This document shows, piece by piece, positions 2,300 through 5,616 of a stretch of DNA of 41,322 bases. A program made the translations under genes and the position numbers. The stretch spans positions 1-41,322 of the forward strand of contig CAJWRJ010000013.1 of NCBI GenBank assembly GCA_913046215.1, written 5' to 3'. The notes under the pieces are model-generated. The model made no database searches. It had not been told where the DNA came from and saw only the letters and a list, made by a program, of their open reading frames with translations. The stretch is from an uncultured Legionellales bacterium. GTDB taxonomy: Bacteria; Pseudomonadota; Gammaproteobacteria; Eutrophobiales; Eutrophobiaceae. Every line of letters starts with the position of its first letter. Positions within the stretch are counted from its first letter, which is position 1.

Positions 2300-2336
2300 T
2301 TAAATAAGATAATAATATCTATAAAGAGAAATCGAA

Positions 2337-3146
2337 ATGACAGAAGGTAGTGCCCCATCCATCAAAAAGAAGTTAGCCAAGAAACACTATGAAGCAGAGC
2401 TTCAAAGGTTGCAGATTGAGCTGGTTAAATTGCAAGAGTGGATTAAACATAAGAAGTTAAAGGTCCTTGTTATCTTTGAAGGAAGGGATGCCGCTGGAAA
2501 AGGTGGTGCTATTAAGCGAATTACTGAACCACTTAGTCCTAGAATCTGCAAGGTCGTTGCCCTGCCCGCGCCAACAGAGCGCGAAAAAACACAGTGGTAT
2601 TTCCAAAGATACATCCAACATTTACCGTCAGGCGGTGAAATGGTGCTTTTTGATCGAAGTTGGTACAACCGCGCAGGTGTAGAGCGAGTGATGGATTTTT
2701 GTACGAAGGCTCAATATAAAGAATTTCTTAAAAGTTGCCCTGTTTTTGAGCGAATGCTAGTACGTTCAAAAACCATGGTAGTTAAATATTGGTTTTCTGT
2801 AAGCGATGAAGAGCAAGAACGTCGATTTCAGGGACGCATTCATCATCCAACTAAGCACTGGAAACTCAGTCCTATGGATCTACAGTCGCGTTCTAAATGG
2901 ATGGAATATTCTAAAGCAAAGGATAAGATGTTTAAGTGTACCGATATCAAGCAGGCACCCTGGTATGTTGTAAATGGTGATGATAAAAAAAGAGCGAGGT
3001 TAAACGTTATTAATCATCTATTAAGTTTAATCAATTATAAAGACTTATCACCCGAACCCGTTGAATTACCTCCAAGACAGGATGATGATGAAAAGTATGT
3101 AAGGAGCCCGCTTGAAGATCAGAATTTTATTCCTGAAATATATTAA
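2337..3146 (+). CDS. ppk2: Polyphosphate kinase 2 (PPK2, class I type)
   Basis: 269 residues, a normal length for single-domain PPK2. The Walker A loop GRDAAGKGG is at 49-57, the Walker B/lid segment LFDRSWYNRAGVERVM at about 104-119, and a lid helix with RRFQGRI follows near 162. PPK2 enzymes transfer phosphate between inorganic polyphosphate and nucleotides, usually using polyP to phosphorylate ADP or GDP; one-domain class I enzymes make NTP from NDP. The direction used in the cell cannot be read from sequence. AGAGAAA lies before the ATG. No ppk1, ppx or phosphate-regulon gene is nearby. The protein should be cytosolic. Confidence 0.93.
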   Translation: MTEGSAPSIKKKLAKKHYEAELQRLQIELVKLQEWIKHKKLKVLVIFEGRDAAGKGGAIKRITEPLSPRICKVVALPAPTEREKTQWYFQRYIQHLPSGGEMVLFDRSWYNRAGVERVMDFCTKAQYKEFLKSCPVFERMLVRSKTMVVKYWFSVSDEEQERRFQGRIHHPTKHWKLSPMDLQSRSKWMEYSKAKDKMFKCTDIKQAPWYVVNGDDKKRARLNVINHLLSLINYKDLSPEPVELPPRQDDDEKYVRSPLEDQNFIPEIY

Positions 3147-3187
3147 TGGTGCCCTCCCCTTACAAACTACCTAAGTAATAACTTGCA

Positions 3188-3610
3188 ATGAAAAGCATTC
3201 TATACTCAATTCTTCTTTTATTATCATTCAATGTTTTCTCTGGTTACCCAGAAGATGATGCGGAACGTGGCGATGCTATCGCTCAATGGGCGCTAGGAAT
3301 GAAATTTGTGCGCGGTGATGGTGTGGCACAAGATTACAAGGCGGCTCTAAAGTGGTTTCAGTTATCTGCTGAGCAGGGATTTTCAGATGCTCAATTTACC
3401 CTAGGAACAATGCATCATAATGGCAATGGTGTTGAGCAAAATATAGTTATTGCGCATATGTGGTTTAATATCGCATCAGCAAATGGGCATGAAAGCGCTA
3501 AAAAAAAGCGAGACTCTCTTGAGAAAAGTAAAATGACAAAAGAACAAATTGCAGAAGCCTGGAAGCTCGCTCGTGAATGTGTTAAAAATAATTATAAAGA
3601 TTGTAGCTAA
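3188..3610 (+). CDS. Secreted Sel1-repeat (SLR) protein
   Basis: 140 residues. An N-terminal signal peptide (MKSILYSILLLLSFNVFSG, cleavage expected near residue 19) is followed by two Sel1-like repeats of about 36 residues: one from about 30 (ALGMKFVRGDGVAQDYKAAL) and one from about 66 (LGTMHHNGNGVEQNIVIAH). The tail is helical and charged (KKKRDSLEKSKMTKEQIAEA) with two late cysteines (about 130 and 139). SLR proteins are alpha-solenoid adaptors and the partner is unknown. Its signal-peptide coding sequence strongly resembles that of the next gene (3614), suggesting duplication or shared origin. It starts 41 bases after ppk2, perhaps on the same transcript. Confidence 0.82.
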   Translation: MKSILYSILLLLSFNVFSGYPEDDAERGDAIAQWALGMKFVRGDGVAQDYKAALKWFQLSAEQGFSDAQFTLGTMHHNGNGVEQNIVIAHMWFNIASANGHESAKKKRDSLEKSKMTKEQIAEAWKLARECVKNNYKDCS

Positions 3611-3613
3611 ACT

Positions 3614-3912
3614 ATGAAAAACATTCTCTACACAATCATTCTCTCTTTCTTGTTTTATCCAATGTGTCTGCTGAATGGAATAGTAAAAATTTAAAAGAGG
3701 TGCATGATGGTTGTACATCAACCGATGAAAGTGATTATGATACATTTGGTGGAAAGAATAAGTTAATTTTATATTGTGATTGCTCTACATATAATCTATC
3801 TCAAGATTTTACAGTTAGTGAAGTAGAAAGACTTATATATTCAGGAGAGATGGAATCAAATGAAAAATTCAATAAGATCGTTGAGTATTGTATTAGATTG
3901 GTTTTGGACTGA
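3614..3912 (+). pseudogene. Small secreted cysteine-containing protein, signal peptide out of frame
   Basis: ATG at 3614 begins a typical signal peptide (MKNILYTIILSFLF), but that frame reaches a stop at 3692. One frame back the sequence continues as VLSNVSA (an ideal signal-peptidase site) and then EWNSKNLKEVHDG and about 75 more residues to a stop at 3912. Joining the frames in the T-rich stretch around 3646-3657 gives a complete precursor of about 99 residues, so one base appears to be missing. The mature part has cysteines in the pattern C...CDC...C and an acidic composition; no family is recognised. If translated as is, it could start at GTG 3664 without a signal peptide. It lies 3 bases after the Sel1-repeat gene and shares its leader sequence. 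A natural frameshift, a sequencing error and programmed slippage all remain possible. Confidence 0.6.
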
Positions 3913-3930
3913 TAGTAGATTTCCTGCTCC

Positions 3931-4794
3931 CTAATTTTTAACTGTATTTATTAAACCCGCACTTAATATCATAACTATCCCAATAAACTGAATAACAGTT
4001 ATGAGTTCATTGGCAAGCATCACAGCTGATACGGCACCCACAATAATTTCAAATAAAAATAAAACCGAGGATAAATAAATCGGTAAATTAGAAACAGCAT
4101 ATTGTGCCGTCCACGTCATGATGATCATTAGCGGAAACCCTAAGACACCTATCAATAAGAGATTGTTTAAAGTAACTATTGGAAAACTATCCTGAGTGAG
4201 TAGAATTCCGCACCCCGCAAGTACTATAACGCCGAACCATGAGGAGCACATTTTAACCGTATGAGTCAGCCCCCCTATTTTTCTGACTAGAATATTAGTA
4301 ATCGCGAAGGCAAGACCAGAAGTGATTGCATAAAAGTCCGCTCGGTCAAAACTCTTCATAAACTCTATTTCAGGGTGCCAGGAGATTAAAAAAACACCCG
4401 CTATAGCAAGCAATAAGGCGAAGATATTTCGTTTTTTGAGTATTTCATTAAGGATAAAAAAGGCGAGAAGTGTTGCCCAAACAGGTGAGAGATAAAAGAG
4501 GATCATCACCCGTACCACCTCCCCTTCTAATAAGGCGAGAACAAAACCAAGATTAGTCCAGCCAGCAAAGAGCGCAAGAAGGATATAAAGCGTCTTTGAG
4601 GCATAAAAATCAGCTCGAAGCGTATAAAATCGAGGAAAAATGAACAAAAAAGACACAAAATAGATTAAAACACTCGCCCAGAGACCAGAAACACCCGATT
4701 TTTCTAAAAAACGGAGCGGAATCCAGTAAAGTCCCCACAAGGTTGCGGCCACCAGACAGGCAAAGACCGCACTGAGATGAGTCGTATTTTTCAA
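3931..4794 (-). CDS. EamA/DMT-superfamily permease
   Basis: 287 residues with ten predicted membrane helices arranged as two five-helix halves, as expected for the drug/metabolite transporter superfamily. The first half begins at LSAVFACLVAATLWGLYWIP, the second near residue 150 (FYAITSGLAFAITNILVRK). Helix ends carry conserved-looking motifs such as LSPVWATLLAFFILNE (about 102-117), typical of EamA domains. Members export amino acids, metabolites or drugs; the substrate cannot be predicted here. It lies at the end of the minus-strand cluster, 42 bases after tatD, convergent with the small secreted-protein locus. Confidence 0.85.
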   Translation of the reverse strand: MKNTTHLSAVFACLVAATLWGLYWIPLRFLEKSGVSGLWASVLIYFVSFLFIFPRFYTLRADFYASKTLYILLALFAGWTNLGFVLALLEGEVVRVMILFYLSPVWATLLAFFILNEILKKRNIFALLLAIAGVFLISWHPEIEFMKSFDRADFYAITSGLAFAITNILVRKIGGLTHTVKMCSSWFGVIVLAGCGILLTQDSFPIVTLNNLLLIGVLGFPLMIIMTWTAQYAVSNLPIYLSSVLFLFEIIVGAVSAVMLANELITVIQFIGIVMILSAGLINTVKN

Positions 4795-4836
4795 AAAATT
4801 TAGCCGTTAAAATTTAGAATAAGATTTAGATAGTTA

Positions 4837-5616
4837 TTATAAAGTATTTATTTTATTGAATTTTTCTTCGTAATTTTTTGTAGTATTCGTCGCTACATCC
4901 TCGAGACTCTCCTCTTTGAGTTCGGCTAAAAACTCGGCCACGTACCTGACATAGGCTGGTTGGTTTATCTTCCCTCGTAGCGGAGTTGGGGCTAAATAGG
5001 GCGAATCTGTTTCAATTAACATGTTTTTGAGGGGTATTTGTCGTGCAACCTCCTGCAACGGCTTGGCATTCTTAAAAGTCACGATCCCCGAGAACGAGAT
5101 TAAAAAATCAAGATCAATTGCTGCCTTTGCTGTCTCTAAATCATCTACAAAACAATGCATTACACCACCTACTTCATCTGCTTTCTCTTCTTTTAAAATC
5201 TGAATCACATCGCTCTTGGCCTCACGAGAGTGAATGATAAGCGGCTTTTTCAATTCCTTCGCCGCATTAATATGTGTTCTGAATTGGTCTCGCTGCCACT
5301 CAAGATCCCCTTCGCTTCTAAAGTAATCAAGACCAGTCTCACCAACTGCAACCACATTGCTATCATTTGCGAGATGGGTGATTTCATCAATAGTTAAGGT
5401 ATTTTCGGGTTTTGTATTGGGGTGCACCCCTACTGAAGCAGAGACCTCATCATGCTCTTTTGCCAGAGCAATAATCTCGGGAGAGCCTTCCAGATCAACA
5501 GCAACGCATAACATATGAATAATATCGTTATTTTTTGCCTCACTCAGGATCGAATCCACCTCCATTTCATCGCTCAGTAGCGGTATATGGCAGTGTGAAT
5601 CAACTAAACCAGGCAT
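4837..5616 (-). CDS. tatD: TatD-family metal-dependent deoxyribonuclease
   Basis: 259 residues, full length for the family. Metal ligands of the TIM barrel are visible: DSHCH (H8, H10), the glutamate in GETGLDYFR (about 97), IHSREA (about 130), MHCF (about 155) and ETDSPYLAP (about 204). TatD/YcfH enzymes act on DNA 3' ends or as D-aminoacyl/nucleic acid hydrolases, and the tmk-holB-pilZ-tatD neighbourhood is typical of the YcfH branch in gammaproteobacteria. It follows pilZ by 21 bases on the same strand. It is cytosolic. The family is certain, the exact substrate is not. Confidence 0.92.
   Translation of the reverse strand: MPGLVDSHCHIPLLSDEMEVDSILSEAKNNDIIHMLCVAVDLEGSPEIIALAKEHDEVSASVGVHPNTKPENTLTIDEITHLANDSNVVAVGETGLDYFRSEGDLEWQRDQFRTHINAAKELKKPLIIHSREAKSDVIQILKEEKADEVGGVMHCFVDDLETAKAAIDLDFLISFSGIVTFKNAKPLQEVARQIPLKNMLIETDSPYLAPTPLRGKINQPAYVRYVAEFLAELKEESLEDVATNTTKNYEEKFNKINTL

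Follow-up and report, generated by a model that had tools for sequence, protein, structure and literature searches.

The region at positions 3614 to 3912 of the window, i.e. of the whole 41,322-nucleotide stretch of DNA analysed here, is best explained as a whole as a young pseudogene: an orphan gene for a secreted protein which was recently broken by a frameshift. We put the probability of this reading at about two in three; it is based on one assembled genome. The two halves of the signal peptide lie in different reading frames, the downstream frame has the character of coding DNA, and the signal-peptide DNA has a continuous paralogue in the same genome with which it aligns across a single one-base gap.

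Results

Locus and reading frames

The window is the whole contig C13 of genome G000, an assembly of 1.40 Mb in 52 contigs that is 98.8 % complete. The features of the locus and the related gene starts in other genomes of the genus are collected in Table 1.

Table 1 Features of the broken gene, its surroundings and the orphan gene starts (window coordinates unless a genome and contig are given)
Feature	Position	Strand	Evidence or remark
Polyphosphate kinase 2 (PPK2), conserved left neighbour	2337..3146	+	Pfam PPK2, E 2.2e-107
Sel1-repeat protein, upstream, with its own signal peptide (MKSILYSILLLLSFNVFS)	3188..3610	+	Pfam Sel1, E 2.5e-17
Signal-peptide DNA module, gene-start segment recurring in the genome and the genus	3609..3675	+	Sequence matches
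26-codon frame MKNILYTIILSFLF..., which encodes the signal peptide's first half and continues out of frame until the stop	3614..3694	+	
Frame-change site, gap of one base against the continuous C2 signal peptide, T4 run	3653..3660	+	Pairwise alignments
82-codon ORF from GTG, signal-peptide end VSA and 79-residue acidic four-cysteine mature part	3664..3912	+	
Mature part of the 82-codon ORF	3673..3909	+	
Conserved convergent right neighbour	3931..4794	-	4 of 6 genus genomes
Orphan starts ATGAAAAACATTCTCTACACAAT (or 2 mismatches), no gene body	G005:C49:4280; G005:C35:347 and 294 (minus)		12-25-residue peptides beginning MKNILYTI
Orphan starts of the same series	G002:C205:20578 (minus); G003:C26:13619		MKNILYTI peptides

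The PPK2 neighbour is present in five of the six genus genomes. The Sel1 gene, which has an orthologue in G004, ends with its stop 3 bases 5' of ATG 3614, and the right neighbour is presumably a transporter of the DMT/EamA type. Rfam gave no match within 2300-5000. The interval after PPK2 (3147-3930 in the window, compared in G001, G003, G004 and G005) is variable and holds no, one or two genes depending on the species; G003 lacks the convergent neighbour as well.

Translation from ATG 3614 gives MKNILYTIILSFLFYPMCLLNGIVKI, with the stop at 3692-3694. Shifted back by one base, the reading frame stays open from 3613 until a stop codon at 3910-3912, and its translation includes LFLVLSNVSA-EW. 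This confirmed two statements of the first-pass annotation, that a signal peptide starting at ATG 3614 ends after 26 codons and that VLSNVSA follows in the neighbouring frame. The elements of a Sec signal peptide, i.e. a positive start, a hydrophobic core and an AxA-type cleavage site, were all recognised by eye, split over the two frames. The residues after VSA have a pI of 4.45, with 16 D+E against 8 K+R, and include cysteines at positions 14, 35, 37 and 73 (C...CxC...C). The mature part had been described as an acidic protein of 75 residues with a C...CDC...C pattern; the acidity and the four cysteines stand, and the length is corrected to 79 residues.

As expected of a recent break, the downstream frame is unbroken and coding-like, and its openness is not due to chance. 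Among 5000 first-order Markov shuffles, a stop-free run of this length arose once. The codon usage, with the window's own long ORFs as the reference, scored 0.14 bits per codon; of 625 wrong-frame pieces of the window, about 1.1 % (7) scored this high or higher, and of 125 true-gene pieces 23 % (29) scored at or below it. The downstream ORF offers only GTG 3664 as an ATG, GTG or TTG start. In its own frame, the very short signal-peptide piece 3614-3652 (13 codons) scored poorly (-0.49), and the case for this piece rests on its paralogue and not on codon usage.

A continuous paralogue of the signal peptide

Positions 3609-3675 of the window are 90 % identical to positions 61199-61265 of contig C2 in the same genome, where the segment is the start of a different, intact 373-aa ORF (MKNILYTIILSFSFSFSVFAEES...). 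The only gap in the alignment is one base long and lies near 3657, where the T-rich run pointed out in the first-pass annotation ends on its right side; 41 of 44 bases are identical to the left of it and 15 of 18 to the right. The local alignment score was 47.5, compared with at most 15.0 in 100 shuffles. The match stops one codon beyond the apparent cleavage site. Beyond the signal peptide, the broken gene and the C2 ORF encode unrelated mature parts (best pairwise E 2.3), and what they share is therefore not the resemblance of two genes homologous over their whole length. Since both halves of the signal peptide match C2 with one gap, the two frames were probably once one gene, and the break would be an indel inside a formerly continuous signal peptide rather than a chance pairing of frames. 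The earlier suggestion that one base is missing from an otherwise continuous secreted-protein gene is supported by this paralogue. Former continuity of the frame is thereby indicated for the signal-peptide segment; for the mature part, no convincing relative turned up in the genomes searched.

In the C2 locus (60748-62324), the 373-aa ORF comes after a 152-aa ORF which is found in one of the six genus genomes, and G000 may therefore have acquired the two ORFs recently.

The same spot in sister species

The same gene start is partly lost in sister species. In G004, of which the PPK2 gene is 91 % identical in DNA to that of the window, the Sel1 gene is followed only by ATGAAAAACATCCTCTAC, and the sequence then jumps to the end of the convergent neighbour, so that just the first 18 bases of the broken gene are retained. 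The Sel1 gene is also absent in G001, where ATGAAAAACAT is kept at the corresponding junction. Given these remnants in G004 and G001, gene loss at this spot has precedents. G005 has neither the Sel1 gene nor such a remnant at the spot, and G003 has a different gene after PPK2.

Search for relatives of the mature part

No convincing match to the mature part was obtained in 96 relatives at E ≤ 0.1, where three matched, namely the window itself, G023 (0.02) and G073 (0.09), or in 53 family genomes at E ≤ 0.05, where the window and G023 matched; at the level of the order, the search covered these same 53 genomes. At E ≤ 0.02 in 369 genomes, the two matches were the window and G192 (0.0185, in a frame with three stops). 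Two of these candidates were rejected as homologues: the G023 match has no CxC pattern and lies in a long frame, which we take to be that of an asparagine synthetase, and the translation of the G073 match has a CxxCH motif, presumably of the haem type. A peptide-pattern search of genome contigs matched 55 stretches, none of which was a relative, and a search of plasmids gave one match (E 3). From Pfam, DUF4832 alone appeared, at E 0.099 and below its cut-off; NCBIfam, PHROGs and the PDB sequences contained no match for the mature part, and no Sel1 repeats (PF08238) were found in the 82-codon ORF. Structure prediction for the 82-aa ORF alone gave a mean pLDDT of 44.

The gene-start segment across the genus

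With up to three mismatches, the gene-start 23-mer at 3614 occurs at nine places in five of the six genus genomes and in none of the 47 other family genomes, while the reversed 23-mer, used as a control, occurs in none of all 53. In its degenerate form, the 23-mer was found in four contigs among 84,980 species genomes, a set that may leave out the window's own or near records; judged by length or position, the four correspond to contigs of G002, G003 and G005. Viral contigs contained none. At three of the nine places the segment heads an ORF (the Sel1 gene at 3188, the 373-aa ORF and, in G004:C6, another Sel1 gene); a fourth place is the broken gene, and the remaining five are orphan starts, whose frames run for 12-25 residues. 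The five exact copies of the 23-mer comprise the broken gene together with four orphan starts, and none of them has an intact gene body.

Positions 3593-3656 of the window are 86 % identical to G005:C49:4259-4322, and the first 39 bases of this copy are identical to the window. The PPK2 genes of G000 and G005 are 76 % identical and share no identical 36-mers (0 of 745) or 23-mers (0 of 758). Compared between G000 and the more closely related G004, orthologous signal-peptide starts have only 49 of 66, 46 of 60, 47 of 66 and 58 of 66 bases in common.

In front of two of the orphan copies, the sequence reads by eye like the tail end of a Sel1-type gene, with DCG and then a stop codon that is followed by the ATG after 3 bases; the window shows the same arrangement with DCS. 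The module therefore probably derives from Sel1 clusters that have decayed. In the first 24 bases, all four differences in copies without an intact gene are synonymous third-position changes (two in C35, one in C26 and one in the G004:C5 remnant, within its 18 bases); for the intact genes the corresponding counts are 1 of 1 in C2, 2 of 4 in the gene at 3188 and 2 of 4 in G004:C6. These counts, which are small, hint that the starts were translated until recently. The copies were found by their 5' end, and its retention is therefore partly a selection effect. With a profile built from eight signal peptides, the six genomes gave 12 matches at E < 1e-4, the eight source peptides included; among the further matches, those in G002:C230 and G005:C3 head one orthologous gene, in which the signal peptide is merely similar.

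The bases before the orphan starts G005:C35:347 and G003:C26:13619 are alike by eye (CACACAGCG...GGGGTA.AATTTG.GG), and the shared segment may therefore include a short upstream region. G000:C33:2038-4790 and G004:C6:616-2354 each hold a cluster of Sel1-type genes with a 118-121-aa gene, with related signal peptides. Between the two species, the first 66 bases of these cluster genes diverge to an extent similar to that of the remainder, or marginally greater.

Discussion

We propose that the locus was formerly a two-gene unit, in which the Sel1-repeat gene was followed by a small, lineage-specific gene. The small gene would have encoded an acidic 79-residue protein of the C...CxC...C type, exported by the Sec pathway, and its signal peptide would have been a copy of the gene-start segment which in this genus heads Sel1 and unrelated genes. 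An indel of one base within the signal peptide, around position 3657, would then have ended the continuity of the reading frame in the assembled sequence. As assembled, translation from ATG 3614 is predicted to stop at a hydrophobic peptide of 26 residues, and export of the mature part would fail. We infer that the gene was once intact, that the indel is real and recent, and that the mature part would have been exported by Sec, with its cysteines used in disulphides. A frameshift of an orphan secreted-protein gene is in itself an ordinary event.

Four causes for the split frames had been put forward in the first-pass annotation, and among them the young pseudogene is the best supported, by the C2 paralogue and by the intact downstream frame. 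Programmed -1 slippage, or switching by repeat slippage (phase variation), would leave the gene functional, and both halves are indeed intact, with the downstream frame being the -1 frame. However, no in-frame slippery heptamer (X XXY YYZ) occurs in 3614-3694, the longest homopolymer at the frame-change site is T4 (A5 being the longest in 3614-3694), and the CT-rich stretch is equally long in the C2 copy. Nor is the RNA directly downstream any more stable than shuffled sequences (-12.0 compared with a mononucleotide-shuffle mean of -12.9, sd 2.8). The lack of a heptamer and of a long homopolymer speaks against both mechanisms, which lose the support they had as explanations, and we regard a functional gene of this kind as extremely improbable. 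Together with the unexceptional RNA stability, these results leave a real frameshift or a consensus error. An error in the assembly or consensus is rather unlikely; the cells would then carry an unbroken gene for a secreted protein, and the gap would be confined to the metagenome-assembled contig. The genus records are metagenome-assembled genomes, the frame outside the gap is intact and resembles coding DNA, and an intact mature frame of 79 codons could mean a working gene; but the run at the site is no longer than T4, no other gene on the 41-kb contig is obviously split (43 ORFs, judged by eye), and the relatives show gene loss at the same spot.

The downstream ORF could also be read as a separate cytoplasmic protein starting at GTG 3664, with the upstream signal-peptide segment as an unrelated leftover. 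The GTG is a legal in-frame start, and similar orphan starts without a gene body are found elsewhere. Nevertheless, positions 3658-3675, read in the downstream frame, share homology with the last part of the signal peptide in C2 (15 of 18 bases), and GTG 3664 therefore lies inside a relic of the signal peptide; in addition, no ribosome-binding site was apparent by eye before it. We have little confidence in a cytoplasmic protein, and the young pseudogene remains our preferred reading.

Beyond the first-pass annotation, the signal-peptide DNA itself proved to be a genus-specific, repeated gene start, and its position before unrelated secreted proteins, together with the exact orphan starts in several species, is the part that deserves a second look. 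A tentative and rather improbable extension is that a genus-specific start module of about 40-67 bp from the ATG spreads as DNA, by copying or exchange between loci and between species, and founds genes for secreted proteins by fusion to unrelated ORFs, and that its bare copies may still be expressed. The fusion partner at the present locus would be the orphan four-cysteine protein, and the bare copies may give membrane micropeptides of 12-26 residues beginning MKNILYTI. If true, this would be a bacterial case of signal peptides passed from gene to gene, by which orphan ORFs could quickly become exported. Among the literature matches listed, which give partial coverage, there was no bacterial report of a signal-peptide DNA segment common to unrelated genes.

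A gene family with a common promoter and signal sequence is described for Schistosoma japonicum (PMC3434034). As in that family, a signal-sequence segment is dispersed before several genes and has no relatives outside the lineage. The S. japonicum family belongs to a eukaryote and was dispersed by means of a repeat element (PMC3434034), whereas here the host is a bacterium, the copies are few and no repeat element was identified.

The secreted Sel1-repeat (SLR) genes and their tandem clusters, i.e. the neighbour at 3188-3610 and those in G000:C33 and G004:C6, share the signal-peptide type with the broken gene, but the mature part of the latter has no Sel1 repeat and no similarity to those genes. 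In young bacterial pseudogenes with a single frameshift, an otherwise intact ORF is likewise split by one indel. The present case differs from the usual ones in that the broken segment is a signal peptide encoded by a repeated gene-start module and the mature part an orphan.
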